Shown piece by piece: positions 45,180 through 64,000 of a stretch of 64,000 nucleotides of DNA (position 1 is its first letter; each line of letters opens with the position of its first letter). The stretch lies in the NCBI RefSeq assembly GCF_019320115.1, contig NC_089581.1:72337155-72401154 (forward strand). The letters are read 5' to 3'. The notes under the pieces were generated by a model. It was given only the letters and a program-made list of their open reading frames with translations, was not told the origin of the DNA and did no database searches. The position numbers were made by a program, and so were the translations under genes. Origin of the DNA: Miscanthus floridulus. Taxonomy: Eukaryota > Streptophyta > Magnoliopsida > Poales > Poaceae.

Positions 45180-48051
45180 ATGGGGTTGTCAATCTCATAC
45201 CCACCGGACGACTACCTGCCAGCAGTGGAGGACAACATGGGCCGGCTGTTCATCCGGTCTCATAGCTTCGACGACATGGAGGCCGACGCTGAGTCACCTT
45301 TGTCTTCGCCTTCGGCATTGCCCCCCGCCTTTGGCTCCGGGAAGCTCATCATAGAAGGCTCCCTGAGCTTCAAAAGGAGAGAGGCTGACAGCATTCAGAT
45401 GCAGAATGTGTTGTCCATCAGGAGTCCTAAACCTCCTGATAGAGAAGCTTGCAACATCATCAGTGCCGGTGCTGCTACTTCTGGGTCATCAAGATTCGGG
45501 CCAATCGGGGACCGTCCACCAGATTATGATTACCCCATGGTCGGAATGGACAGCCCCAAGCACCAGGCCGCGGCCGTCAGGCTGCAGAAGGTGTACAAGA
45601 GCTTCAGGACAAGGCGGCAGCTTGCGGATTGTGCTGTTCTTGTGGAACAACGATGGTAGGACACTGCCTTGTTCTATGCTATTTATTGGGTTGGGTGTGC
45701 TTGTTCTTGTCATCAAGCCATCAAGGTGGTGCTTTTCTGAATTTTATTTATGATGATCCTATATAAAATGCAGGTGGAAGTTGCTTGATTTTGCACTGCT
45801 CAAGCGGAATTCGGTGTCATTCTTTGATATAGAGAAGCCTGAGACTGCTGTCTCAAAATGGTCCCGGGCAAGAATGAGGGCTGCCAAGGTACCAATTGTA
45901 TTCTTCTGTTTAGATATACCATCATAACTTCAGCAATCAGCATTATGAATTTTGTACAGTGCAATACCAACTTTGTATCAGCAGTCTTTCTTTTCTTGTA
46001 ATATACTGCATTCCTGACAGAGGTGTAGTGTTGCTGTCGCATTTAGGTTGGCAAAGGTCTCTCCAAGGATGAAAAGGCCCAGAAACTTGCCCTGCAGCAC
46101 TGGCTCGAGGCGGTATGTTATGTACCAAGAACATAAATGTCTCCATAAATATAATGCTGGTCAGATTATGCTCTGAGCAATCAAAAACTGCATTTTGATC
46201 CATTTCTGATTGTCAGATTGACCCTCGACATCGGTATGGCCACAACCTGCACTTCTACTACCACCGCTGGCTCCACTGCCAGAGCAAGCAGCCATTCTTC
46301 TATTGGTACACACACACAGCAAAAGTCATGTGTCTGAACCAATGAACAACATAGTTACTGATCGAGTACTGACGGTTCTGTAATTCTTTGGACAGGTTGG
46401 ATGTAGGAGAAGGGAAAGATGTCAACTTAGAGGAACATTGCCCTAGATCGAAGTTGCACAAGCAATGTATCAAGTACCTTGGCCCTGTAAGTTCCACTGT
46501 TTGTTCCTCCTCTGATTCAAAGTGAAAAAAGAAACATTCAGGCAGTAGAACCTGCTAGGTTGCATATGTCATATTATCACATTAACCAAATATGTCGTCT
46601 CATGCTCGTGCAGAAAGAAAGGGAAAATTATGAAGTGATAGTCGAGGATAAGAGGCTGATGTACAAGCTGAGCCGTCAGATAGTCGACACAACCGGAAGC
46701 GCCAAGGGGACCAAGTGGATCTTCGTGCTCAGTACATGCAAGACTCTTTACATAGGCCAGGTGAATGATGATTCCCTGACAAGTTCGGATGGAATTCTTT
46801 TGAACACCGAGAGCAATTCAGTGACTGAAGTGAGACCGAAACTTTGACATGTTTGCAGAAGCAGAAGGGCGTATTCCAGCACTCAAGCTTCCTTGCAGGG
46901 GGAGCCACATCTGCTGCAGGAAGACTGGTTGTGGGGGATGGAATTCTCAAGGTGTGGCATAGAAATTTGTACTGTGGGATTCATTCATCCCAACATTACT
47001 GTTTTTTTCTCTCCTGCTCAAGTTAGAGATGTGTTCATTTCAGGCTGTGTGGCCTCACAGTGGGCATTATCGGCCGACGGAGCAGAACTTTCAGGAGTTC
47101 ATGAACTTCCTCAAGGAGAGGAGTGTGGATCTTACCAATGTGATGGTAAGGAGCCTAATATATTGTGAATCCTATGTAAGTAGATTAGCTAATGATCCCA
47201 GACGCTTCAGCTGATACTGGTATTCTGCTGGCATTTCGGTTTTGGTACAGTTGAGCCCATCAGAAGGTGAAGAAGACGGCGATTTCAGCCTCAGGGGTAG
47301 CCACTCTCAGCTGGACCTGACCCAACTCTGCCAGCAAGAAGAGGAGAGCCAAGAACAGGAGGCGCAATCTGCGCAACGCCATGGCAAAGACGAAGCCGAA
47401 GCCGAGACCTGCAGCCACGAACCCACCGTGCCAACATCTACAGAGACCTGCAGCACGCCGACGACGACGATCAGGAAGACCTCCTCAGACAACAGGCTGA
47501 AAGGGAAGCGGCCGCCCAGGCTGTTGATCAGCTCCAACAACATAGCACCGCTGCCGCCCGCCACGCACAGCAGCAACGCCAGGCCGTCGCCCGGCGTGAA
47601 GGACGTGGACCCGGACTCCGCCATGCTGGGCGAGTGCCTCGACTTCTGCAAGCGGAACCTGTTCGCGGAGGACGGGTACGAGGACCACTACCTGGACGAC
47701 CTCGCGGAGGTACCGGAGGCGCTGATCCTGAGCCGCATCAACTCCAAGCGGGCCATGCACTCGTACCAGCTCGGGAAGCAGCTGCACTTCCACTGGAGCA
47801 CCGGCGCCGGGCCCCGGATCGGCTGCGTCCGCGACTACCCGTCCGAGCTCCAGTTCCGGGCGCTGGAGGAGGTCAGCCTGTCGCCCCGCGGCGGTGGCGG
47901 CAGGCCGGCGAGGTTCCCGTCGCCCAGGCCGGGCGCGCTCACGCCCAACAGCATCCCTGCGGCCAAGTGTGGCTCTCTTATGGCGGACGGCGACGGCGTG
48001 CGCGCGTCGCTCAAGCCCAGGCAGAGGAGTGCAACTTGGACCGCGTTTTGA
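45180..48051 (+). CDS. IQM: IQ-motif calmodulin-binding protein of the IQM family, 9 exons
   Basis: Coding exons: 45180-45655, 45774-45888, 46047-46112, 46217-46305, 46396-46486, 46614-46760, 46859-46951, 47044-47145, 47251-48051. All junctions are GT-AG with matching phases; the product is 659 aa. The start at 45180 ([11 protein letters not shown]) was chosen over an in-frame ATG 36 nt upstream because IQM proteins begin MGxS. An IQ calmodulin-binding motif lies at about residues 130-147 ([18 protein letters not shown]), followed by the family's conserved region ([87 protein letters not shown]). The last exon adds a 266-aa, Ser/Glu/Pro-rich, probably disordered tail. IQM proteins bind calmodulin without calcium and act in stress and stomatal responses in Arabidopsis; which member this is was not decided. 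No lesions seen. Confidence 0.95.
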
Positions 48052-48957
48052 CTTTTGAGATAGCATGCATGCTTCCTTCAGTTTTTTCTTGCTTCTTCAC
48101 TTTCACGGCAGAATGATGCTGATGCTGACTGTGCATACTTAACTGAGGGAAATGTGAGATAGCATGCTCCTTCACGTAGACGAGGATAGAAGGATCAGCA
48201 TTAACATTTGGCAAACACTGGGTAATGCCGTTGTAATGGTACTGATAGGTTGATGGGCAAGCTCTTGCTGTTTTATAAGTGCATGGAAAGAGCAAATATG
48301 AGGTATCACTTCAGTGAAACCATTCTCAGATTGCACATAAATCAAAAGCAAATCATGTTAACCAACTGAATGAAAAAAAAAGATTTGTTTTGACAGTGAA
48401 GCAACAATCATGCAGCTAGTCCATTCCAGGGCATAACCAAACAAAATATTTGGATTTGTTGTGACAGTGAAACACATCAATTTGGCTCATGTTGGCAATG
48501 CAGCAAGCATTCAAACAACTCATGTAACTAGTTCCCAATGTGACAGCATATCCTAATTCAGATACAGATGTACCAAAACTGTAACCAGATGAGAACTCAC
48601 ACTACATTTCCATTGCTCTTAACCATACTTCTTAGCCAAATCAAAGATAAAGCAGTGTCGGATAACTTGATAAGCAGTACACAACCAAGACCGTTTACAT
48701 TTTAAAGGCAGCAACTGCAGAGGACAGACAGCCAACAGCAGCCTCATGAGACTTCGCTATTTTAGGCCCCTTCGTCTTCTTAATAAAAAGGTTTTAGGCT
48801 GAATGTAAACAATTCTATTCCTCTCGAAAGAATCAAAACGAATTTGCCCCCCATAAAAAAATTCAAGAAAAACTGAAATTGTCCGCTCAAAAGAAAATAT
48901 AATAGTATTGTTCTTATTTTGTTATTTTTTTTCTTCGTGCAAAGGGTAGGAAAAAAA
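48052..48957 (+). other. IQM 3' untranslated region and downstream spacer
   Basis: AT-rich sequence after the IQM stop codon, with no recognised gene on either strand. Confidence 0.45.
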
Positions 48958-49090
48958 AACAATAACAACGTAGCGTTTCAGTCCCAAACAAATTGGGGTA
49001 GGCTAGAGTTAAAACCCACCAAGAGCCCCAACTCACGGTTTAGACACTTCAATAGCTGTTTTTCAAGCACTCCTATTCAAACATAGATCT
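48958..49090 (-). repeat. Fragment of a common grass repeat, possibly an RTE-like LINE tail
   Basis: Contains acaataacaac followed by tcagtcccaaacaaattggggtaggctagag, a dispersed motif of grass genomes. The inverted short form tggcctaccccaatttg also occurs near 1513. Assignment to RTE-like LINEs is from memory of the motif and is uncertain. Confidence 0.4.
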
Positions 49091-49097
49091 CTACGTA

Positions 49098-52000
49098 TGT
49101 AACACCCCGGTGTTATGCCAGCATTTAGGCACTGCAAATCATGCATATTATGCATCATCAAGCATCCTAATCATACATGCCTAATCATGTAAATAATAAC
49201 TGAAACAATGCTTCGAAACATATGAAACATGCTCGTGAAACATGAATGTTGCATACACTTGTTTAGAGTTGTTTTTGCCCTAATTATGCTGGCTAGGTTA
49301 GTAAAACATGTTTGGCTATAATTGTAAATCATCTATAATTATTTAGCACAATTTTTGGAGCAAAGTTTGTATTCAAACTTTTGACAAAATATGCTTTTGA
49401 AATTATTATTGAAAATGGTCAAAAATCCTCTCTATTTAGCTTTTGCTTCCCAATTCAAAATCTATGCAAAATTTTTAGTTGGTCCCTAAAGAAAAGTTGT
49501 AGAGGATTAAATTCTAAGTAACTTTTATTTTTGGGCCATTTTCAAAAGAAGTCATTTTCTTGCTCAAAAGGGTATTTGAAAACTGATATTTGAAAATTCC
49601 TTGAAAATAGAAATTGAAAAATGGTTTCTCTCCTTTCACGGGCCGCCGCCTCACTTCTGGCCCGCCAGCCAAAGCCGGCCCAACGATCCACCCCGCGCCG
49701 CGCCTTCGCCTCGGCCCAGCCCACCTCGCGCGCGCTGGCTTCCTTCTTCCCCCGCGCGCGTACGCGTCCGACCGCGTCAGGCACGCCGCGCCGCGTGGCG
49801 AGCGCATGCCGGCGACGCCGGCCGGGTGGCGTCCCGTGGCCCCCGCAAGCGAGCGCGCCTCACCGTTTTCAAGCCACCGCAGCTCCGTTTCTCTCTACGC
49901 TTCTCATTTTTCTCTCCCGCACTGCCTCTCTGCCTCGCCCCGCACCGAGCTCCGCTCGCGCCGCCGTCGCCACCGCAGCCCCGCCGGCAAAATTGGCCGC
50001 CGGTGCTCCACCATTGCCCGCAATCGAGCACACATCGCTCCGCCTCGCTCCTCGGCACCTGGTGCTCACTGTAGGGACACCATTTGAGCAAGGTATAGCG
50101 GTCTTGCGCGTTTCGCCGCCGTCGGTCATGGCGTCGCCGCGCTTGACCCCGCCGTGGAAAGCTTCCCCCCGTCCCTTCTCCATCCCTTTGTGTAGCCTGC
50201 TCGGGTTCGCCACCTTCTTGCGGACCCCGCGCACACGCCCGCTTGCCCGAACATGGCCGGCAACGGCCGCCGGCCCGCTGGCAGCGCCCGCACCGCCGTA
50301 ACGCCGGCGTGGCGTGGCGTGGCGTCTCGCCTCGACCGAGCTGGGCCAGGTCGGCCTTGGGCCGAAGCCCCGAGCCAGGCCGCCGCCCTTCCCCTTCGCT
50401 CGGTTGCGCAGGCCGAAAGTGGCCGTGGGCCAGTTGTTCCCACGGGCCGGCCCAATAGTAATAGGAAAAATTGATTTCGGTTTTCGTTTATTATTTGGGA
50501 AGAGAAATACTTTGAAAAATGTTTGTGTACTCATTTTGGCTCCAAATTTGTTGAAATAAATTTTGCTAGGTTCCTTGTCACCAGATCTATATGATAAAAA
50601 TATTGCATGTCATTTTTGAGATACTTTTATGTAGAGCTTTATTTAATCCATGATATTGCTGATATCTTGTAAAATGTGTAGTAAAACCTATATGTTTCAG
50701 AAAAATATGCTTCCAAGTGTGTTATTCTTTTTGTGTAATGTACTTCCTAGGAAAAATATATGCCATGCATTTCCTGTAGAAAAATTGTGAGATGTAGTTC
50801 AAGTGCCTTTAATGGCTGATTTTTGTTATTTTTGCTAGAGAGCAAAATTTGTATAAAACATGCATGTGATAATTTTTGTACAGTGATTAATTGCTGTGTA
50901 GAACATAGGAAAAATATTACATCTGTTGTTTGACATTTTTCACAGTACAAAGTATTTTCATATTCAAAATTATGCCCTAGCTTGTCATTTTTGTGTAGGC
51001 CATTCCACTTATCCAAATGCCATAAAAATCTGATGGTAGACTACTTAGGGTAGTACTGTGCTATGGTAATTTTCTAAGATTTTTCTAAGCTATAAAAATA
51101 GATGTTGCTATTCAAACCTATTATTAATTTGGGTTTAATCAAATGTTGCCTTATGTATGAATAAGAAATTAGTGAAGCTTTGGTGTATCTTTGAAGCATT
51201 TAATGAGATGTGTTGACTCAGCATATTAGTAGTAGAAGAGAATGCAGTAGATGACATGTGCTTGTAGTATATGTTCTTGGATGATGTTGACTACCTTGCA
51301 TTAAAGCATATCCATTGTGTTCATTTCATCCGATGCACTTTTTGCATAAGCACTTACGCACATGCATCATATAGGATTGCAAACCGAGAGCCCAGTCGTC
51401 ATACCTGAGGAGCCTGAGGAGCAGCTCGAGGTGCAGCCGCAGGAAGTGACCGAAGCAGACGAGGAGGACGTTGAGAAACTTCCGGAGTGCCCCGATCACC
51501 GCCCGAGCTCCTTCGAGAGAGGCAAGCCCCAGAGCATTTTTCTCCCCGGTTTGCAATTATTAATTAAATGCTTTACTTTAATTGATGCATTACGTTCAGG
51601 AGTTGTTTGCAACCGTTGCTGCATTATACCTTGTCTACCTTTGTTATACTATATCCTTGTTACCCTGGTATCCGCAGTCGAGTCAATGCTTAGCTGGCTT
51701 AGATCGGTAGAAGTCGGGTGATTTCCTGTCACCTGCGAGCTATAGGTGGTTATCTGGATCTGCTTGGATAACTATATAGTCTTGGTATAACTAAGTGTTA
51801 ATTTGAAGTTGAGACCGGACGGAGACTTACAGAGTTTTTGACTGTAGTGCTTTCCATCTGTGTCGATTAAGGACCGACCGTTGTTGGGCCTCAGGTCATG
51901 TTGAACGCATGCCTTACATTTAGCTGGCCGAATAAAGTACCTTTCGACCACAAAGCTGGGAGATTATTCAGGCCGAGTAGATTGCCCGCAGCGTACTATG

Positions 52001-52994
52001 CCGGAGCAGGTGTGGTAGGACACGGGGGCGCGAAGATAAGACCAAAGAGCAGTCGGTCGGCCCCCGGGTACATGTGGTTCCTGGCAAACTCGAGATTCCT
52101 AGATAGTTGACTCGGTGACCGATACCTCACTTTAGCGGGTGAGTGAGGTTTGTGTAAGGAATAAATCACCAGCTGGTTAGGAATCGATTTGAGTCGCCAT
52201 CGCTCCTAGATAGTGAGCACTTGACTTGAGTGACTTCATCGTAGTAATGTTAATGGAACACTTGGACAGTTATAATGAATATGACATTATGAAAGTTGTT
52301 AATGATCATTGGTTATTATTATTTGCTTAATCACATGCTTGCTCTAGTATAGGTGCAAATGTAGTCGATAGGTTAATAATAATTAACTTGACAATAATGC
52401 TTTTGTAAAGGTTCTTGAAATGCTAAAAATGCCTCTTTTTGCAAATGAGTTAGCTACCCTACTATAAAGCCCTTCATAATCCTTGGTGTCACCTTATTTT
52501 CGGTTATGTCGGGTAAGTCTAGCTGAGTACCTTCTCGTACTCAGGGTTTTATTCTCACTTGTTGCAGATGGGCAGATGTATTACGGCTATTGTATCAACT
52601 GCCTTTATCCAGCGATGGGTGATGCTTAGGACCATGGGCATGGCCATTCCATACATCTTGTCTGATGCTTTTGTTAGAGATGATCATTAGCTGGCACTGT
52701 ATTTGAACTCCGTGTGAGTGTGTGTGGTTTTGAACAAATGGCTTCCGCTACTTCTATTTGAACTCGTTTTGTAATAACTATGTTTAAACTCTGATGTATC
52801 TGTGATGCGAACTTTTATGTAATATGTGATGGTGACCGCTAAACTTATTACGATCTGGGCTGGTATGTGAGTTGGTTTAAAATCCTTCGTGATTTCATGG
52901 ACTATCGGGTTATACGGGCTTAAGTTTGCTAAATCGTCTGCTCTAGCGGATGATTTTCTTACTTAATTTCGTATAATTGGTCGGTTCTGTTACA
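49098..52994 (+). repeat. 5' LTR (about 3.9 kb) of the Ty3 element
   Basis: Ends TGTAACACC and GTTACA. A GC-rich island at about 49640-50460 is open in several frames at once but resembles no known protein. The region 52440-52980 holds short transcript-like pieces. No second LTR is present to confirm the right border, which was set from the TG...CA ends and the adjacent primer-binding site. Confidence 0.8.
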
Positions 52995-52996
52995 CC

Positions 52997-53008
52997 TGAC
53001 ATCAGAGC
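52997..53008 (+). other. tRNA primer-binding site of the Ty3 element
   Basis: TGACATCAGAGC agrees at 10 of 12 positions with the initiator-methionine tRNA complement commonly used by plant LTR retrotransposons (TGGTATCAGAGC), and begins 2 nt after the LTR end. Confidence 0.78.
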
Positions 53009-53784
53009 ATGGTTTAGCGTGTTACTGTTCACAAGTGTATTTAAAACAAAAAGGCAATTGAAAAACGTGATTTCCAAACTAAAAAGTGTGCCCGTGGTCA
53101 TATCCTTTATGCCCAGTTAAGGACTCTAGGTAGCTTAATTAAGTACTAACTTGGGGTTCTTGCATCATATTTCTCTTTCATCACTCGTACGGTGTGCTAT
53201 TGTATGAGTGCCACTTGTTTGAGTGGTAATGTATGGATCATTTGCCTCTACGCCTCGGTAAGTGTGAGTTGTGAGAGCATGATCGAATACACCGCCGATC
53301 TAGGGTGAATGCTTATATGATGCTGGAGTAATTACATGTTCTACGCATGTTTTACAAAGGTATCTCATGTGTGGGTATTCTGTCTATTGAGGCGATGCCG
53401 TCAATAGGACGATGGTTCGGGTAGTTACTACCGTTGTACACGTATCTGGGGATTCGTGTAGAGCGTGTAGATAAAACTTACTGCTTTTATGCATTCATTG
53501 GGAATTGGGCTGAAATGAATCTTCTGTAGGTACATAACAACGTTATCGTGTAGAACGTATTAGATACGTATTTGAGAGATCGTTTGTATGCCACCGAATT
53601 CGTCGCTAGAAATTATTTATTTCATAAGTTTGTGAGAACGTACGGCACGTACATACATCATATTACTTGTGCATTTCATTCATGTCATGCATTCCTCCCC
53701 TTATAAATTGATTATCTCATTTTGATAAAAGTTGTATCACCTAAAATATGTTCCCACGGGGTAATAAAAGAACTTTTGTTACAG

Positions 53785-54771
53785 ATGGCCCGCACAAAGC
53801 AGACTGTCCGTAAGTCCACCGGAGGAAGAGCACCTCGATGTTCATTGGCCCTGAGGGAGCACCACACCACGGACACCTTCTTGAGCGAGTTTAGCATGCC
53901 AACCTTACTTTGGAGAGTGCTCCATGATGTGGGGTACCCAGAGGGTCAAGAGTCGGTGTACTCTTGGAATGAGAGTCAGTTAGTAGAGGATGGACTTGCA
54001 GTGGTAGAAATCATGGTTCCTGCTCTTGGTGATGCTCCAGAGTGGGATGGTTGGCACTTGGAGTTTGAGGGTCGCACTCCTATTGAGGGTGCAGAGGGAG
54101 CAGCTTTCCGTGTCATCAGGGATATCATGAGCAGATTTCCCAGTGAGCTTGCAGTAGCTCTAGCTGGCACCTTTCCTAGGGATGATCCTCGTGATGCTAT
54201 TTGGGTTCAGCCTCAGGGAAGTGCCTTGGTCAGAGGTCCAGCTGAGGGACAGGCTAGCGACAACCATGCTATGAGTGCTATGTTCACCGCCATCAGAGCG
54301 TATGAGGGTCTTGAGAGTACCTACTAGACTTTGACTGGCTTACGTAGTCATGATAAGCTCAAGGTAGGAAAGCAGAAGAAGCAGGCATGTGCTATAGCTG
54401 GTTTGTAGGAGCAGTTGGCTGATATGAGTTTACAGCGGGACCAGGCGGTAGAGAGAGGTGATAGAGCTATGCAGCGGGTGCATACATTGACTTAAGCCAA
54501 CAACAATGCAGACCGCATGATTGGACAGTTTGTTCAGGAGAGGAATGAAGACTGGGACGAGAGGGACCTTCTGCTGCAGAGGGTCGATGAGCTAGAGGAG
54601 TACAACGTCAACCTACATGAGGAGTTTCACGCGCTCTACAATGGGGTTGGCCCATATGCTCCTCCAGACGTTGCTGGCATGGACATCGACGACGACAATG
54701 AGGATGAGCCTATAGTTTCACCTAGGGGCGATGGTGACGTCTCTAACCCCGATGATGGCCTCGAGGAGTAG
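53785..54771 (+). pseudogene. Extra retrotransposon reading frame with a histone H3 tail-like N-terminus
   Basis: ATG 53785 opens a frame whose first residues read MARTKQTVRKSTGGRAPR: 15 of the first 17 positions after Met equal the histone H3 tail (V for A7, R for K14). K4, K9, S10 and T11 are kept. Similarity ends at about residue 21; there is no histone fold. The body (residues ~22-180) is acidic and of unknown family, and the C-terminal third after 54409 is coiled-coil-like with an acidic end (DIDDDNEDEP). Three in-frame stops (54325-54327, 54406-54408, 54493-54495) break the 328-codon frame. The ATG directly follows an acceptor-like ttttgttacag. It is not a histone gene: it sits between the primer-binding site and gag of the element. 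Function unknown; a chromatin-reader decoy or tether is conceivable. Confidence 0.8.
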
Positions 54772-55134
54772 GCTAGTTGCCTTGCGCTAGTGTTTAGGTC
54801 CTGTCGTGATGACCTTTCTTTTGTTGGCATGTAACCTAATGTATCTTGCTTCGAACTTATGAGACTTGGCATGTGATTGGAACTTGGCTAGTAATGTGAT
54901 ATCTGAACGCATAAAAGTCCAGTGTATGTATGCTGGCAATTTGGTTGTATGGATGCGATGTTTGCTTTTGAAGTAATTTAATTAGTAATGTTGTTTTAAT
55001 TGGGATGCGATTATTGTGCCTCTGTTTTATTGTATGAATTTATTCTCTCTAGTAAATTCAGTTTGGCATAATTTTTCATTCACTCACAATTATTACAGCT
55101 TCACTCAATCATTACTTGTTGCTGAAATATGCAG

Positions 55135-55815
55135 ATGACAAATACTCGTCGTACCACTTATGAGGCTGCTGAGACCGGTGCTAACGGTGCGGGGACCAGT
55201 GGTGGTGGTGGAAACCACGACAACAACAATGAGCCTCCCCATGAGCCGCATTTGCCACTTCCTCCCCCGTTTACCCTAGAGGTGTTCCTCGCACAGTTGC
55301 TCGGGAGTCAGCGCAACACGAAACAATCCTAGAAGAACATGGAGGATTTTCTGCGTACTATCACCAACAATGTTCAGCGCAGTAACAATCAGGGTGGTGG
55401 CATTAGGGTGAATCAATATAGCAGCTTCAAAGATTTTATGGACACCAGGCTGCCAATATTCAAGGAAGCAACAGAACCACTCGATGCTGAAGAATGGATC
55501 AACACTATGGAAGATAAATTCCATGTGTTGAGGATGACTGAGGTATTGAAAACTGAGTATGCTGCACATTAGTTGCAAGGACCAGCGGGAATGTGGTGGA
55601 AGCACCATCGCATAACCTTCCCTCCAAATGCTCAGATTACGTGGAGTTTATATTCCACCTGGGCTGACCAAGATGAAGTTGGGAGAGTTCTTGGTGTTGA
55701 ATCAGGGCACCAAGACTGTGACACAATATTTGCATGCTTTCAATAACTTGTGTCGTTATGCTCCCGACATGGTTGACACCGATGTTAAGAGAATCGCTAG
55801 ATTCAAGAGAGGACT
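55135..55815 (+). pseudogene. Ty3 gag relic, broken and truncated
   Basis: The frame starts at ATG 55135 (MTNTRRTTYEAAE) directly after an acceptor-like aaatatgcag. In-frame TAG occurs at 55330-55332 and 55570-55572, and a frameshift lies between 55573 and 55628. The capsid segments FKDFMDTRLPIFKEATEPLD, EEWINTMEDKFHVLRMTE and LTKMKLGEFLVLNQGTKTVT place it with Tekay/Del-type Gag. It is cut off at 55815 by the TRIM-like insertion. Confidence 0.85.
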
Positions 55816-56600
55816 TGTAACAACCAGTTCCGACATACATGGCCCAGGCCCACTCTTCCGAGGAGTGGTCCCACCCGCGTAGCAACCCGCTTGAACTTTC
55901 GTCCTCGCTTTGTTCAAAACGATTAACCGAAGGTTACTATGCGTCCCTGGCCCTGGTATTTAAGTCAATCCAGCGATTCCTCAGTTTCCAGTATGGTACT
56001 AAACTGGTTGCGCAGTGTTTTTTCGCGGTGATACAGTAACAGTGAACAGTACCTTGAATTTGGTCGGTCCATTTCCGGGTGAACAGTACTCGGTCTACAG
56101 TACCCCCCCCCCAAGCCTGGATTCTACAGTAACCGCCCATTTCTCTGCTGCAGTACCACCGGCCCATGACTGGATTGGATTGGGCCCACTTTGGCCCATT
56201 AGGATGTTACAATCATCCCCCTTAAGGATTTGACGTCCCCGTCGAATGCCAGATCAGCTTACCCTTTTGGGACATTTATTCCCAGGATCCGCCTCTCTTC
56301 AACACGTTTGTGTGGCCCCGTGCCGGTACATGTGCATGCCATGCCGTGTCCACGACGGGTCCATGCACATGCACACAACATCCCCACGCAGTTGTCCCCA
56401 CATGCCCGTGAAACCTCGAGAGTCAGCTCTGATACCAAATGTAACAACCAGTCCCGACATACATGGCCCAGGCCCACTCTTTCGAGGAGTGGTCCCACCC
56501 ACGTAGCAACCCGCTTGAACTTTCGTCCTCGCTTCGTTCAAAACAGTTAACCGAAGGTTACTACGCGTCCCTGGCCCTGGTATTTAAGTCGATCCGGCGA
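55816..56600 (-). mobile_element. TRIM-like non-autonomous LTR element, minus strand, running into the gap
   Basis: Two direct copies of a sequence starting TGTAACAACCAGT lie at 55816-56211 (ending GGATGTTACA) and from 56440 into the N gap. Between them is only 228 bp. On the minus strand the sequence next to the second copy is TGGTATCAGAGC (rc of 56426-56437), an exact initiator-tRNA primer site, and AAGGGGGATGAT next to the first copy is a polypurine tract. Full size would be about 1.02 kb with 396-bp LTRs and no coding region. Its far border and target duplication are hidden by the gap. Confidence 0.85.
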
Positions 56601-56700
56601 NNNNNNNNNNNNNNNNNNNNNNNNNNNNNNNNNNNNNNNNNNNNNNNNNNNNNNNNNNNNNNNNNNNNNNNNNNNNNNNNNNNNNNNNNNNNNNNNNNNN
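56601..56700. other. Assembly gap (100 N)
   Basis: Exactly 100 undetermined bases, the conventional length for a gap of unknown size. It lies between the second TRIM LTR and the middle of a Copia gag, so sequence is certainly missing and the join may be wrong. Confidence 0.99.
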
Positions 56701-59700
56701 TTGAGGATGTGACAGGCCATCTGTGAGTGGTGGACGAGCGCTTGGAGCAGGCGACAGCAATGAAGGACAGCAGCAAATTGCTACTGACGGAACAAGAGTG
56801 GGCTGCTCAGAGGAACTTCGGAAAGGCAGCCTCCTCCAGCAGTGGTGGCAATGGCAAGCGCCGCGGCAAGGCTTCTTCGGAGAAGAAGAAGCAGGTCGAC
56901 CCCAACGCCTATTGGCGTTGTGGGAAGATGAGCCATTGGGCACGAGAATGCCCAAATTACAAGCAGGAGAAGAAGGCTGAGGCTCATCTAGCGCAAGCTA
57001 ATGATGAGGATGAGACCACTATCCTGATGGCAATGTTCTGTGCACTACACGACATTGAGGCCAAGGAGAGGGAAGAGGCGACAATAGTGGAAGGACCTGG
57101 GAGGGCCCTGAAGTTTGTCAACCTCGATGAACCACGTGCCCAAGTCCACCTTGAACGTGTGGGCGCCAACTAGGAGCAACGGTGGTATTTGGACTCTGGT
57201 GTCAGCAACCACATGACAGGCTCCAAGGCATCCTTCTCCGAGCTCGACGATGATGTTACCAATACGATAAAGTTTGGTGATGGCTCAAGGGTGGCTATCC
57301 AAGGGCGCGGCACCATCATCTTTAGGTGCTAGAACAGGGATCACCGCATGCTAACGGATGTATATTACATCCCGCAGCTACGTTCCAGCATCATCAGCAT
57401 TGGTCAGTTGGATGAGTGCGGTAGTGATGTACTGATCAAGGATAGAGTCCTTAGGATCAGGGACTAGGAGCAGCGACTTCTTGCCAAGGTGAAGAGGTCC
57501 CTAAACTGGTTGTACCTACTCGACCTGAAGGTAGAGTAGCCGGTGTGCCTAGCGGCAAGGCACTCTGAGGAACTGCGGATGTGGCATGCCCGGTTCAGAC
57601 ATCTTAGCTTCGATGCGCTTGGTCGGCTAGAGAAGATGGTATGAGGGCTACCCCACATCAAGCACGGAGGTGAGCTATGTGATAGCTGCTAGGACGAGAA
57701 GCAGAGGAGGCTACCATTCCCAAAGGCGGCCAAGTATCGCATGAAGGACACTCTCGAGCTCATCCATGGAAACCTATGCGGTTCCGATCACGTCTGCTAC
57801 AAACGGTGGTCGGTGATACTTCCTCCTGCTCATGGATGATTGTAGTCGCTACATGTGGCTACAACTCCTGACGAGCAAGGATGAAGCGGTGGCGGCAATC
57901 AAGAAGTTCAAGATGTGCGTGGAGGCCAACAGCGGCAAGAAGCTCTACGTGCTGAGGACTGATCGCGGTGGTAAATTCACTTCGGTGGAGTTTGCTGCAT
58001 ACTGCATGGATCAGGGTGTGGGGCGACACCACACTACGTCATACTCGCCATAATAGAATGGCATGGTGGAGAGGCAGAACCAGATGGTGGTCGGCATGGC
58101 TCAATCCATGATGAAGGCCAAAGGCATGCCGGCAAGGTTCTGGGGTGAGGCGGTGACCATAGCGGTGTCCATCCTCAACCGTGCTCTGACCAAGGCCCTG
58201 ATGAGCAAGATGTTGTTCGAAGCTTGGTATGGGCGCAAGCTGAGCGTGTCCTTCCTCTGGACATTTGGCTGCATCAGCCACGTCAGGAAGACGAAGCCAA
58301 ACCTCACCAAGCTGGAGGATAGGAGCACACCGATGGTGTTCCTAGGCTACGCAGAGGGTGCCAAGGCGTATCGGCTCTATGACCCACACGGAGACAAGGT
58401 GCTTGTCTCGTGCAACATTGTATTCGATGAGAAGGCAGCTTTGGACTAGAGCAGTCCAAGCATGGGGGAAGCTGGCGGCTTCACTAGCACCTTTGTCGTC
58501 GAGCACCTGGTCATCCACGACGGTGGAGACGCTGGGGAAGAGGTGTCGAGCACTCTAGGAGGGGTGCCAAGCACTCCAGCGGTAGAGCCAAGCACTTTGG
58601 GAGGGATGCCAAGCACTACGGGAGGAGTGTCGAGCACTCCTGGAGGGATGCCAAGCATGCCAAGAGTGGCGCCGAGAGGTTCTACAGTGGTGGCAACCAC
58701 TCTAGGACAGGTGTCAAGCACTCCCATGGCAAAGCCAAGAGGTCCTACAGTGGTACCGACCACTCCAAGACTGAGGCTGAATGCTCCTACAGTGGTGCCG
58801 AGCACTGCAGGAGTAGTGACGAGCTATCCAGAAGTAGTGCCAAGCACTACAACTAGGGTGCTGAGCACTCTAGGTGTTGTGCCGAGCACTCTGGTGGAAC
58901 AGGGAACTCCATCAACACCGATCGAGTTCGCCTCACCTCTAAGTGACATCACTGAGTTTGTGGATGCCTTCTACGAAGGAGAGGAGGTGCGGTTTCGCAG
59001 GCTGGACGACATCGTCGGCGGCACAGGGCCCTCAGGACTAGCTAGCCGGCTGCTCAATGACACAAAGTTGCTTCTCATCAGTGTAGAAGAACCACCCATG
59101 TTTGCTCTAGCCGAGCAGGATGGAAACTGGTGATGGGCGATGCTGGAGAAGATGAAGGCGATCGAGGAAAATGAGACATGGCAACTCATCGATCCACCTC
59201 CAGGATGTCGTCCGATCAGCCTGAAGTGGGTGTACAAGGTCAAGCGGGATGAGTTCGGCGCCATTATCAAGCACAAGGAGCGCCTCGTCGCCTGAGGCTT
59301 TGTTCAGCGCGAGGGCATAGACTTCGAGGAGGTCTTTGCGCCAGTAGCGCGCATAGAGTCAGTCCATTTGCTACTAGCTTTGGCAGAAGCAAAAGACTGG
59401 TGTGTCCATCACTTGGACGTTAAATCGACCTTCCTCAACAGCGAGCTGGCGGAGACGGTCTTCGTCAGGCAACCTCCAGGTTTCGCCGTCAAGGGAGAGG
59501 AGCACAGGGTGCTCCGACTACGCAAGGTGCTCTATGGGCTATGGTAGGCCCCACGAGCATGGAACGCCAAGCTTGACGCCATGCTGGGTAAGCTTTGGTT
59601 TCAACGGTGCACAACTGAGCACGCGCTCTACACACGGCGATGGAGGAAGGAGGAGCTCGTCGTTGGCATGTATGTGGATGACTTGATCGTCACCGGCGCG

Positions 59701-60620
59701 CGCACGGAGGACACAATGGCTTCAAGTGCGAGATGGCGGCTTGTTTTCGAATGAGCGATCTCAGCGCACTCTCCTACTACCTCAGCATGGAGGTGAGACA
59801 GGGGAAGGAGGAACTCACGCTCAGTCAGAGCGCGTATACCTCCAAGCTATTGGAGAGGAGTGGCATGGCTGAGTGCAAGCCATGCGTGACTCCGATGGAG
59901 GAGCGGCTGAAGCTGACAAAGGCCAGCACCGTGGCGAAGGTGGATGCAACACTCTACCAGAGCATCATCGACGGTCTGCGCTACCTAGTCCACACGAGGC
60001 CGGACATTGCGTTCGTTGTGGGCTACCTCATTCGCTTCATGAATGATCCCAGAGAGGATCACTGGGCTACAGAGAAGCGGCTACTGCACTACGTCAAGGA
60101 GACGGTGGATCAAGGGATCATCTTTCCCAAGACCGGCGGGAGTAGACTGTAGCTCACTATGTTCAGCGATGCAGACATGGTAGGGGACATCGACGGACGA
60201 CGGAGCACCTCTGCGGGTCAGTTCTAACTTCATGGTTGTCGCTGAAACAGAAGGTGGTGGCGCTATCTACGTGCGAGGCAGAGTACGTAGCGGCGGCCAT
60301 AGCGGTGTGCCAAGTTGTGTGGCTGCGCTAGTTGCTGGGTGAGCTGACCAGTGTGGAAGCTCATCCACCAGCACTGATGGTGGACAACCAGCCCGCCATT
60401 ATTCTCATGAAGAATCTGGTTCTGCATGACCGGAGTAAACACATCGACATGAAGTTCCACTTCCTTAGGGACTGTGTCGATAGAGGGCAGATAGTCATCG
60501 AGTTCGTCAAAACTGGTCGGCAAATCGCGGACATCCTCACTAAGCCGCTCGGACGTCTTCGACTCACGGAGCTGAAGGAGATGATCGGCACGGAGGGGGT
60601 ACAAGGGTTAGCAGTAGAAT
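56701..60620 (+). pseudogene. Copia gag-pol relic, related to the intron-6 copy but with the integrase core
   Basis: Begins inside gag (IEDVTGHL), then a knuckle region (RCGKMSHWAREC), a protease-proximal HMTGSKASF, a pre-integrase WHARFRHLSFDALG, the integrase core (MDDCSRYMWLQL 57832, RTDRGGKF, GMVERQNQMVVG), a repetitive Ser/Thr-Pro linker, RT (WVYKVKRDEFG 59226, YVDDLIVTG 59671) and RNase H (NQPAIILMKNLVLHDRSKHI 60385, ADILTKPL). Stops or shifts occur near 56724, 57171, 57330, 57466, 57537, 57643, 57690, 58051, 58447, 59132, 59295, 59547, 59720, 60150, 60226 and 60329. It is far more decayed than the other Copia copies. The first Cys of the zinc knuckle is Tyr, as in the intron-6 relative. 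Confidence 0.9.
58549..58890 (+). repeat. Degenerate 27-30 bp minisatellite in the Copia IN-RT linker
   Basis: The short phrases gccaagcactc, gtgtcgagcactc and gtgccgagcact recur about a dozen times, coding for S/P-S-T-x-G-G-V/M-like units between integrase and RT. The intron-6 relative has lost this stretch in its deletion. Confidence 0.75.
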
Positions 60621-60631
60621 TAGAGAAAGAT

Positions 60632-61056
60632 TGTTAGATAATCTACTGCTGCCTTGTGTGAATACAATAAGGAAAGGCGGCGGCTCACCTGCAGCACTGT
60701 AGCCACATGCAGAGGCCGACGCAGAGTCAACCCTGTATGTTATCTAGTTACTGTTACAGCATGTGTGCTGTACTAGGATTAGATAGATAAAGTTGTATAA
60801 ATAGACTACCACGGCAACTCAGTAAAGAGAGTTCAGATTTGTCATCTCTTATACAGGGCTTCGTCCAACGCTGGTGTCTTGTACTATGTGTATACTCTGT
60901 TCTCCCTCTTCTTCAACCTCTAGCCATAGTGTGTGGGGACGGACAACACTTGTTCATAGTCGACTTAGCTAGTAGGCGCTCGGCAACACTAACAAGTGCT
61001 CGACAACACTGGTGAGTGATTCACTCACCTGAGCCGATGATCCTGTGGACTAACAA
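60632..61056 (+). repeat. 3' LTR of the second Copia element
   Basis: Starts TGTTAGATAATC and ends GGACTAACA (425 bp). It contains a TATA box TATAAATA (60796-60803) and an A/G-rich tract just upstream. The 5' LTR is not in the assembled sequence. The right flank is LINE sequence, so the element landed in a LINE. Confidence 0.8.
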
Positions 61057-63932
61057 ACTCCCCCTCATGATCATGAATTATAAAGCCCCAACTACCTTGC
61101 AAGGTCTCCGAGATAAAGGAACCATCCGCATTAATCTTCAGCTGATCTGGTGGTGGCGCACACCATCTAGGCATGGACAGGTTCGAACTGGCCGGCTGCT
61201 GCTGCTCCTTTCTGCCCAGATCGCCAATGAGCTGCATCACTACAGCTGCTACTTCCTCCCCCGTCAGTCCCTTCTCTCCTTTATTTATTTTATTTCTCAC
61301 ACTCCATTTCCAGAGCAAAAGCAAAGTCTTGATGCAGACATCCTCCTCATCTGAAGCACTTCTGTAATCACCTCCCAGGCTGATTGTTTCGTTAACAACA
61401 CTTGACAGACTGGTTCAAGCGAAAGACTGGACCAGCAGCGCCCGACCAATTTACATTTGAGGAAGCAACGTCCCCCATCCTCATCTTGACGATTACATAC
61501 AGGACATCTTGTATCGATCGAGTAGTATCCCCCGACGACGGATGTTCATCTTCAGAGCCAGGCTATTATGCGCCAGGAGCCATGTGAATTGTTTCACCTT
61601 TGGCGGGCATTGGAGTCTCCAGATCTTACGCTAGATCGCCCCATTCTCCTTTTCTCCCTGCCACAGCTGCTAGTCTCGCCAGCCTGACGGACCTTCGCCC
61701 GGTGTTTTGCATCATCAAGCATATGGTAAGCACTCTTAACCGAGAACTGGCCCCTACGATCAAAATGCCAAGCGAAAGCATCTTCGTGTCCTGGACTTGT
61801 AGGGGTTGCCAGGATGTGCCGCACATCTTCAGTCCAAAAAATATCACGTACCATCTCTTCATCCCATGTGCCCGATTCCGGATGCAGTAGCTCCGCAACT
61901 TTTGTCACCAACGTGGCCTTCTAGAGACTCCATTGTGTATCCATGGATCCTCCCAGATTTTGATTTGAGATCCATCTCCTACTCGCCATATTAGTCCCTC
62001 TTGCAGCGCTTGGAGGCCTCTCACAATGCTGCGCCAAGAATAGGATATGCCCGGCCCTTCCCTGGCTTGCAACAAGGATATGTTGGTACAGTACTTCGCC
62101 GTCAACAACTGCGCACACAAGGAGTCCGGGTTCTGTAGAATCCTCCATCCTTGACGTGCCAACATAGCTAAATTGAACAAATGCAGATCTCTGTATCCCA
62201 GCCCGCCTTCCTCTTTCCTTCTGCACATTTCCTCCCAAGAAACCCAATGCATCTTGTTTTCTTTGTCTTGCTGTGCCCACCAATATCGACAAACCATTTT
62301 ACTCATCTCATCACATAAAGATTTTGTCAAGTCAAAGCAGGACATAGCGTAGGAAGGAATTGTTTGCGCCACTGCTTTTGTCAAGGTTTCCTTGCCTGCT
62401 TTTGATAACAATTTCTCCTTCCACCCCTGAATGCGTTTCCATAGCCTCTCCTTTAGATATGCAAATAAGCTTGCCTTAGATCTCCACATATAGGTTGGCA
62501 AACCCAAATATCTCGCATTCAAAGACTCCTGCGTGAGCTCCATAATTTGCATAAACTTTCTTTTATCCTGGGATTTTGTGTTCTTGCTAAATACGATGGA
62601 TGATTTGTCCTTGTTAATTTTCTGCCCCGAGCATGTCTCATAAATTTGTAGCACTTGTCGCAAATGGGCTGTGTTCTCTTCATTTGCTTGCAGGAGAATC
62701 AGCGAGTCATCAGCGAACAAAAGATGAGTGATGCTTGGGGCTCCAGCACATATAGTCACCCCTTGTATACTTCCTCCTCAGCGGCGCTGATCAAGCCAGA
62801 AAAACCTTCAGCACACAACAAGAAGAGGTATGGGGAAAGTGGGTCCCCCTGTCGTAGCCCCCGGATGCTATAATTATATTTGCTCTGTTAAACTCCCATT
62901 AACCTTTATACGGTATGTAACCGTTGAGATGCATTAATTAGGCTGATCCATCTTTCATGGAACCCCATCTTTCTCATTATCTTTCCATGAACGACCATTC
63001 CACTCGATCGTATGCCTTGCTCATATCAAGCTTGAGCGCCACATAACCATCAACTCCACTCCTTTTATTCTGCATGAAATGATTCATCTCATAGGCAATG
63101 AGCACGTTGTAAGTAATCAGACTGGCACAAAAGCACTCTGATTTTGAGAGATAATCTCTGGCAATATAATCTTCATGCCATTTGCAAGAACGTCGAAGCA
63201 ATTTTGTATACCACGTTGCATAGGCTAATCGGACGAAGGTCCTTGAGTTTCTTCGGTAATTGCACTTTAGGGATAAGCACCACCACTGTGTCATTCCATG
63301 AATCTGGCATCAGCCCCCCTCTCAGAAAATTCCTCACTTCTCTGATAACATCATCTCCTATTGTCTCCCAAAAGGATTTATAGAAAATAGCGGGCATCCC
63401 GTCATCACCTGGTGCCTTCAGGTTGCCAATACTATCCAGTCCTTGTTTAATTTCTTCATCCGAAAACTCCTTCAACAATATATCATTCATCTCGGGCGTG
63501 ACACGAGCATCAATACAACGCAGCAGCTCATCTGTGTCGCCACCTGCATGTGAAGTAAACAAGTCACGGTAAAAATCAGTCACCGCCCCCAACAAACCTC
63601 CATCCTCCTCCATTACACGCCCGTCATCCAAAACTATTCTCCGGATTCTGCTTCTACGCTTCCTCTCAATGGCATATTGGTGGAAAAAATTTGTGTTTCT
63701 ATCCCCCTTGTCCACCCAATGTACTTTCGCCCGCTGTCTCCAATACAAATTTCTCTGCTCCTCCAACCTTTCTAACTTAAATTTCAGCAGCTCGCTAGAT
63801 TTCCCTCAATGGCCCCCCGACGCTTACGAGCTCTCTTTATTCTCTTCTCTAGGTCGCCCAGAATATTTCTACTCCAATCTTGAAGACCAAGAGCTACACC
63901 TTGCAGGGCATCCCACACCTTACCCCCACCCC

Positions 63933-63967
<35 letters not shown>

Positions 63968-64000
63968 CCTCCATCGACAATTTCCAAGAATTATTTACAA
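61057..64000 (-). pseudogene. L1-type LINE with RT and RNase H, broken, 5' end outside window
   Basis: Read from the right edge on the minus strand: a linker with a Gly run (63930-63970), the pre-RT region (EEQRNLYWRQRAKVHWVDKG, near 63700-63766), RT core motifs (LKAPGDDGMPAIFYKSFW, KLDMSKAYDRVEW near 63000, LLFADDSLILLQ near 62710), the thumb/zinc region (GLPTYMWRSK; YWWAQQDKENKMHW), the zf-RVT segment (GQFSVKSAYHML, near 61760) and an RNase H start (LKINADGSF, GSWGFIIHDHEG, 61075-61140). The added RNase H marks plant L1 families. Several stops and frameshifts separate these blocks (near 61330, 61590, 61905, 62765, 63170). RNase H is cut at 61057 by the Copia LTR. Confidence 0.92.
63934..63964. 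repeat. Poly-C run (about 31 C)
   Basis: An uninterrupted C homopolymer inside the LINE coding region, coding for Gly on the minus strand. Length is probably not reliable in the assembly. Confidence 0.9.

Follow-up and report, generated by a model that had tools for sequence, protein, structure and literature searches.

An open reading frame (ORF) between the primer-binding site (PBS) and gag of a Ty3/Gypsy retrotransposon in Miscanthus floridulus begins with a close copy of the N-terminal tail of histone H3. The frame lies in a 64,000-nucleotide stretch of contig NC_089581.1, hereafter the window, and is the 5' extra ORF (aORF) of a grass chromovirus of the Tekay kind, a clade name taken from the literature. 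The tail is followed by a body that structure models place in the double-stranded RNA-binding domain (dsRBD) fold and that lacks the lysines by which such domains usually contact RNA. The tail was likely donated by a host H3 gene with introns, from its first coding exon, and between element families there are hints that the tail residues are constrained. We tentatively propose, at somewhat less than an even chance, that this host-derived tail is read by host factors, so that the protein would act as a nuclear accessory factor docking element products on, or distracting, the H3-mark and small-RNA silencing machinery. The frame is arranged as follows:

53785..54771, + strand: 5' extra ORF, 328 codons plus stop, interrupted at 54325, 54406 and 54493
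53788..53838, + strand: H3-tail-like residues 1-17 (ARTKQTVRKSTGGRAPR), with a fainter likeness reaching A21 (53850)
53878..54135, + strand: dsRBD-like domain, alpha-beta-beta-beta-alpha, placed from the AF2 model of relative P0001, structural neighbours, a sister-family model and lysine positions
54331..54768, + strand: coiled-coil-like region (by eye) and acidic C-terminus, past the first stop here, placed from relatives P0003, P0005 and P0009

The frame opens with MARTKQTVRKSTGGRAPR; its translation starts with MARTKQTVRKSTGGRAPRCSLALREHHTTDTFLSEFSMPTLLWRV, terminates with DDDNEDEPIVSPRGDGDVSNPDDGLEE and is broken at codons 181, 208 and 237 (54325 TAG, 54406 TAG and 54493 TAA). Residues 1-17 after the Met agree with H3 (ARTKQTARKSTGGKAPR) at 15 of 17 positions, the differences being A7V and K14R, and K4, K9, S10 and T11 are all present. 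A phmmer search against PDB sequences ranked histone H3 tails first (E 1.7e-5), matching residues 2-23 only. No histone Pfam match was found in the window frame or its relatives. The AF2 model of P0001, which is 91% identical to the window piece, adopts an alpha-beta-beta-beta-alpha fold, not a histone fold. A histone pseudogene was ruled out by the missing histone fold and the retroelement context. Translation and phmmer thus confirmed what an initial annotation, made from the letters alone, had described: an H3-like start between PBS and gag, interrupted by three stops and followed by no histone fold. Its coiled-coil-like, acidic C-terminus also held, the same part being helix-like and acidic in the stop-free relatives P0003, P0005 and P0009; the body that it had called unknown is instead dsRBD-like by model and structural neighbours.

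Predicted proteins were searched with the part of the frame that precedes its first stop, which yielded 105 relatives; further searches used the bodies of distant relatives only, so that the tail could not attract matches, and returned 152 (120 listed) and 119. No relative was found in scans of viral_contigs. Four groups were distinguished by eye: in A (the window's), B and C the frame opens with the tail, and D combines a related body with the start MAAPAG or similar. Of the relatives, 53 extend beyond the body on its upstream side by 20 residues or more; the tail was in frame in 25 of them, in a shifted frame in 2 and absent from 26, all of the latter coming from the D search. A stretch reading ..VQM or ..LQM leads into the start in the tailed and most of the tailless frames that extend upstream, which places the tail at a common start codon. 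In the 25 aligned tails (window included; the frame-shifted P0204 and P0214 left out), A1, K9, R14 and L20 were invariant and K4 was present in 24, with Q5 the most variable early site (Q in 15, L in 8). Positions 14 and 18 were never lysine (R14 in 25; H18 in 18, R18 in 5, other residues in 2), and position 23 was R in 22 of 25.

We rank docking or distraction above the other readings, since A1-K9 is for the most part well preserved. The protein would be made, lose its Met and present a flexible H3-like end, with ART-K4...-K9-S10 exposed and K14, K18 and K23 no longer acetylatable. Met is removed when residue 2 is Ala, and the ART-K4...-K9-S10 part of H3 is recognised by PHD fingers and H3K9 enzymes. 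Most of A1-K9 may be preserved through binding by readers, writers or importers of the H3 tail. The last of these leads to another explanation, on balance unlikely, in which the tail serves nuclear import: Kap123-type importins recognise residues 1-28 of H3 as a nuclear localisation signal, through K14 and K23, the exon would have been taken for nuclear entry, and the K-to-R changes would keep charge while blocking acetylation. The accessible portion of PMC5677370 describes H3 K14 and K23 as held by Kap123, with a K14 acetyl mimic strongly cutting reporter import and K14R having a minor effect; the arginines at positions 14 and 23 fit import equally well, which counts against docking as the sole account. 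Nuclear localisation has moreover been predicted for other grass 5' aORFs in the part of PMC11728184 available. However, A1, R2, T3, K4, T6, R8 and K9 are among the residues that are kept best, and the Kap123 contact does not need them as far as the accessible portion of PMC5677370 shows; that work concerns yeast Kap123, and family D manages without the tail. Import may also hold together with docking or distraction.

In the window's genome (2.68 Gb), first-look candidates numbered 8038 for A, 8447 for B and 9942 for D, counts that are loose and may overlap between families; 150 candidates were scored for each. C is rare, with 6 of 150 rows standing apart at 86-90%. We fetched the 30 top A loci, 20 of the 150 B places, 4 of the 6 C places and 30 D loci, in 26 of which the start was located, the other four being left out. 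All 30 A loci bear the tail, and 4 of their frames run for at least 320 uninterrupted codons; among the D frames, 1 of 26 reaches at least 290. Two points here weigh against a required tail function: a stop falls inside the tail in 4 of the 30 A loci, and ARTK is absent from all 26 located D starts. As D has a related body without it, the tail is optional and not essential to the lineage, being kept in A, B and C. By the initial annotation's own test, its mimic idea would fall if relatives lacked the H3-like start or if this was confined to one copy by a chance fusion; the former is true of D (0/26), whereas A, B and C keep it, and a chance fusion in one copy was ruled out by the tail in the 30 A loci and in 24 relatives besides the window.

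The leaders before the ATG are near-identical in B and D (L031-L060 vs L067-L086), B commonly reading TTAATGGTGCAG and D TTGATGGTACAG, with bodies about 41% identical. The start is commonly ATGGCAGCACCA in D and ATGGCACGCACCA in B; the common first 12 bases of D equal the common first 13 of B minus one C. This similarity may stem either from loss of the tail in D or from a junction formed at a short stretch common to both. One B-type place (G000:C8:4801539-4802000) lies within a 917-residue open frame, exceeding the other 149 listed.

The origin of the tail was traced by comparison with 20 host H3 genes, fetched out of 97 matches. Nine of the 20 carry an intron-like GT after K23, with matches exon by exon, and in three of these nine a 3'-splice-site-like TGCAG abuts the ATG. 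The likeness between the retrotransposon tails and H3 stops at A21, two codons short of the end of that exon. For B tails, all nine intron-bearing genes, presumably of H3.3 type, rank above the other eleven, with mean identities over 51 bases that reach 0.845; the codons of B are nearest to host genes L093 and L094 (0.845), those of A to L100 and L101 (0.811). The indicated donor exon is clear for B and weaker for A and C: for A, two intron-bearing genes lead (0.811) and the remaining seven take 8th and 9th place and the last five places of 20, which speaks against this donor, and for C the best host gene likeness is 0.758. The initial annotation had the element capturing or evolving a tail mimic; of this, the host H3 origin stands, probably by way of that exon, and the mimic role itself continues to be a proposal drawn from sequence. 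The R14 codon is AGA in A, B and C, which also have a common junction, and together these favour a single capture. On the other side, a tree of 66 bases left one and two captures undecided (lnL -734.0 vs -736.9, free -732.4), and two captures would mimic a low nonsynonymous divergence (dN) between A and B. Under repeated capture, part of the A-B contrast given below would be owed to conservation of the donor; the contrast within B would stand.

Between A (29 copies) and B (20 copies), the tail has dN 0.055 and synonymous divergence (dS) 1.08, giving dN/dS 0.05. By comparison, dN is 0.86 in the linker, 0.147 in helix alpha1 and 0.49 in the rest of the dsRBD, where dS is saturated. Majority residues of A and B differ at 1 of 17 positions in the tail, 6 of 12 in the linker, 1 of 15 in alpha1 and 37 of 73 in the rest of the dsRBD (Fisher p 0.0007 for tail vs rest of the dsRBD and 0.011 for tail vs linker). 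Within B, dN/dS is 0.06 in the tail and 1.04 in the linker. Copies were ranked by protein similarity, a choice that works against these estimates in that it lowers body dN and, for B, also tail dN; the linker serves as an inner control for this bias. Dropped rows were L028 (frame shift) from the A-B, CpG, donor, tree and C comparisons, P0218 from the per-site rates and L107 (start unrecognised) from the C comparison. The synonymous divergence ruled out that A and B had recently come to share a single tail sequence. Purifying selection on the tail-like residues, a question raised by the initial annotation, agrees with the constraint that these figures hint at between families.

Several results pull the other way. 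Within A, tail dN/dS is 0.57, mostly through CpG decay (25 of 33 variants); C-type tails vary more (dN 0.132 for A-C and 0.131 for B-C, from three copies); and on the protein tree, tail and body are not set apart by their per-site rates (1672 of 20000 permutations, p 0.084). The rate test and the value within A would suit a tail that is a relic, an H3 exon caught once or repeatedly that contributes nothing and looks kept through conservation of the donor gene or spread by recombination. The region does recombine, as P0218 is a chimera of a B-type tail and a D body whose leader reading is common to it, P0197 and D, and the codons of A and B are nearest to different host genes. Against a relic stand the shared AGA codon and junction, which argue for a single capture, as well as the low tail dN alongside a dS of 1.08 between A and B and the contrast between tail and linker within B. 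We consider a relic improbable.

Constraint is not confined to the tail, as alpha1 of the body is equally conserved (1/15). The A-type and D-type protein models have a common fold, and structural neighbours of the body include the partner-binding dsRBDs of DRB7.2, DCL4 and TRBP. In dsRBDs, the KKxAK lysines opening helix 2 contact dsRNA; at the three corresponding positions, placed by eye on the alignment, lysine occurred in 0 of 81, 3 of 81 and 0 of 78 rows bearing a letter (of 89). Because these lysines are lacking, the body would bind proteins rather than dsRNA, and the coiled coil would make the protein oligomeric. The assignment has weak sides: it was made by fold only, with a mean pLDDT of about 64, a best Foldseek E of 0.013 and many non-dsRBD rows; RNA-binding dsRBDs score as high as protein-binding ones among the neighbours; and Pfam detects no dsRBD in the body. 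A PDB profile search of the body gave five rows, all with E above 0.1 and mostly coiled coils.

Possibly, though doubtfully, the dsRBD-like body is the functional core, a modifier of small-RNA silencing to which the tail is a minor add-on in some families. The common fold of A and D and the conserved alpha1 fit this, and RNA-silencing modulation has been proposed for such aORFs in the available part of PMC11728184; the lack of RNA-contact lysines and the retention of the tail where it is present do not. A combined account, which we think rather unlikely, would make the protein a two-ended adaptor: an acetylation-poor, methylatable H3 tail would engage H3K4/K9 readers, and with a Dicer-partner-like, protein-binding dsRBD at the other end, the one protein would jam or redirect the coupling of H3K9 methylation with small-RNA-directed DNA methylation (RdDM). 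Should host factors indeed treat the tail as H3, this would be a histone mimic encoded by an abundant plant retrotransposon, of host-exon origin and maintained by selection, within a protein that resembles Dicer partners; if it serves import, a transposon would have made a nuclear signal from a histone exon. With candidate places in the thousands for each of A, B and D, this genome offers a natural comparison, between sister families with and without the tail, of insertion sites, chromatin marks and small-RNA coverage.

Three sibling A elements have long terminal repeat (LTR) pieces that are 97.3, 97.6 and 99.2% identical, followed by TGGTATCAGAGC or TGGCATCAGAGC as PBS, and also hold the extra ORF, gag and pol, which together indicate that the A family moved recently. 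In sibling L063, pieces matched Retrotrans_gag, RVP_2, RVT_1, RT_RNaseH, Integrase_H2C2 and SH3_Tf2-1, in the order gag-protease-RT-RNase H-integrase. Chromo (PF00385) was matched in all three siblings, weakly (E 0.0006-0.002, below the curated cut-off). The suspicion that siblings of the dead window copy may be alive, and intact between LTR and gag, is supported by these elements, the thousands of candidate places and the 4 of 30 long A frames; the Tekay-type chromodomain suggested at the same time is found, weakly, in the siblings and not inside the window.

Steinbauerova et al. 2011 (Genetica 139:1543) reportedly noted a partial resemblance to histone H3 in some of the extra 5' ORFs that grass chromoviruses carry. 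In the accessible part of Kazancev et al. 2024 (PMC11728184), a weak DRBM likeness (TM 0.35-0.37) is described for the Tekay 5' ORFs of two grasses, maize Tekay and sorghum Sb7, and the main text nowhere uses the word histone; PMC7264820 does not mention histone, and PMC6317226 does so once, concerning chromodomains. The kind is thus known and the protein is not wholly new, and the view of the initial annotation, partly supported overall, that nothing of the sort had been described was at least partly wrong. The Poaceae Tekay aORFs (RIRE3, RIRE8, Retrosat-2, maize Tekay and sorghum Sb7), as far as the available source text covers them, are alike in PBS-gag place, orientation, dsRBD-like likeness and C-terminal helix; what differs here is the tail and dsRBD in one protein, the tailed and tailless sisters, the selection estimate and the proposed donor exon. 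A search made mostly in open-access main texts turned up nothing published on these four points, and no paper examined in it describes H3 tails in such ORFs.

PAF15/PCLAF likewise has a short H3-like N-terminus on a non-histone protein, much less like H3 than the aORF tail. According to the accessible part of PMC7060239, its H3-like start is read by the UHRF1 PHD finger, as seen in a crystal structure. PAF15 differs in being cellular and in having reader binding established by that structure, which for the aORF is a proposal; Pfam PAF matched 2 of 89 members weakly (best E 0.2). Influenza NS1, a viral histone mimic, copies a few H3-tail residues at its C-terminus. It is alike as a parasite protein imitating a stretch of the H3 tail; the aORF differs in that its copy spans about 17-21 residues, sits at the true N-terminus and probably stems from a host exon that was captured. 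Vandal DNA transposons have anti-silencing proteins, which we take to be those named VANC. These are comparable, by putative role, as element-encoded accessory proteins possibly opposing silencing (PMC11728184, in the part available).

The window copy of the element is truncated. Its remaining features are as follows:

~49098..52994, + strand: 5' LTR of the Ty3 chromovirus copy, ~3.9 kb, approximate, from blastn against a sibling element
52997..53008, + strand: PBS-like site TGACATCAGAGC, read from the sequence and compared with the sibling PBS
53773..53784, + strand: CTTTTGTTACAG, 3'-splice-site-like, abutting the ATG, read from the sequence
55135..55815, + strand: gag, disrupted by stops and a frame shift; sibling likeness stops at 55815

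The blastn pieces between sibling and window, from two separate sibling stretches, were 49098-49172, 49174-49828, 50109-55815 and 50109-52994. We take the PBS to be of the initiator-Met-tRNA type. YAG lies immediately 5' of the ATG in 28 of 30 A, 20 of 20 B and 24 of 26 D loci, a pattern that resembles a 3' splice site. PF03732 matched the gag piece at 55616-55879 (E 5.5e-8). No pol was found in the window copy and, with sibling likeness ending at 55815, the chromodomain is absent from the window; no 3' LTR was found within 46000-64000, so that only the 5' LTR is kept.

A 161-base direct repeat (55816-55976 and 56440-56600, 94% identical) starts exactly where the likeness to the Ty3 sibling ends, and its second copy adjoins a 100-base N run (56601-56700); no other long direct repeat was found. 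Downstream lies a degenerate Ty1/copia element (56727-60637), with SH3_retrovirus and RVT_2 by Pfam and a zinc-knuckle-like gag piece by eye, which was probably inserted into or beside the Ty3 copy. Farther on, at 61905-63805 on the - strand, are reverse transcriptase pieces with a weak RVT_1 match (E 7.1e-6, below the cut-off), by eye those of a non-LTR retrotransposon.
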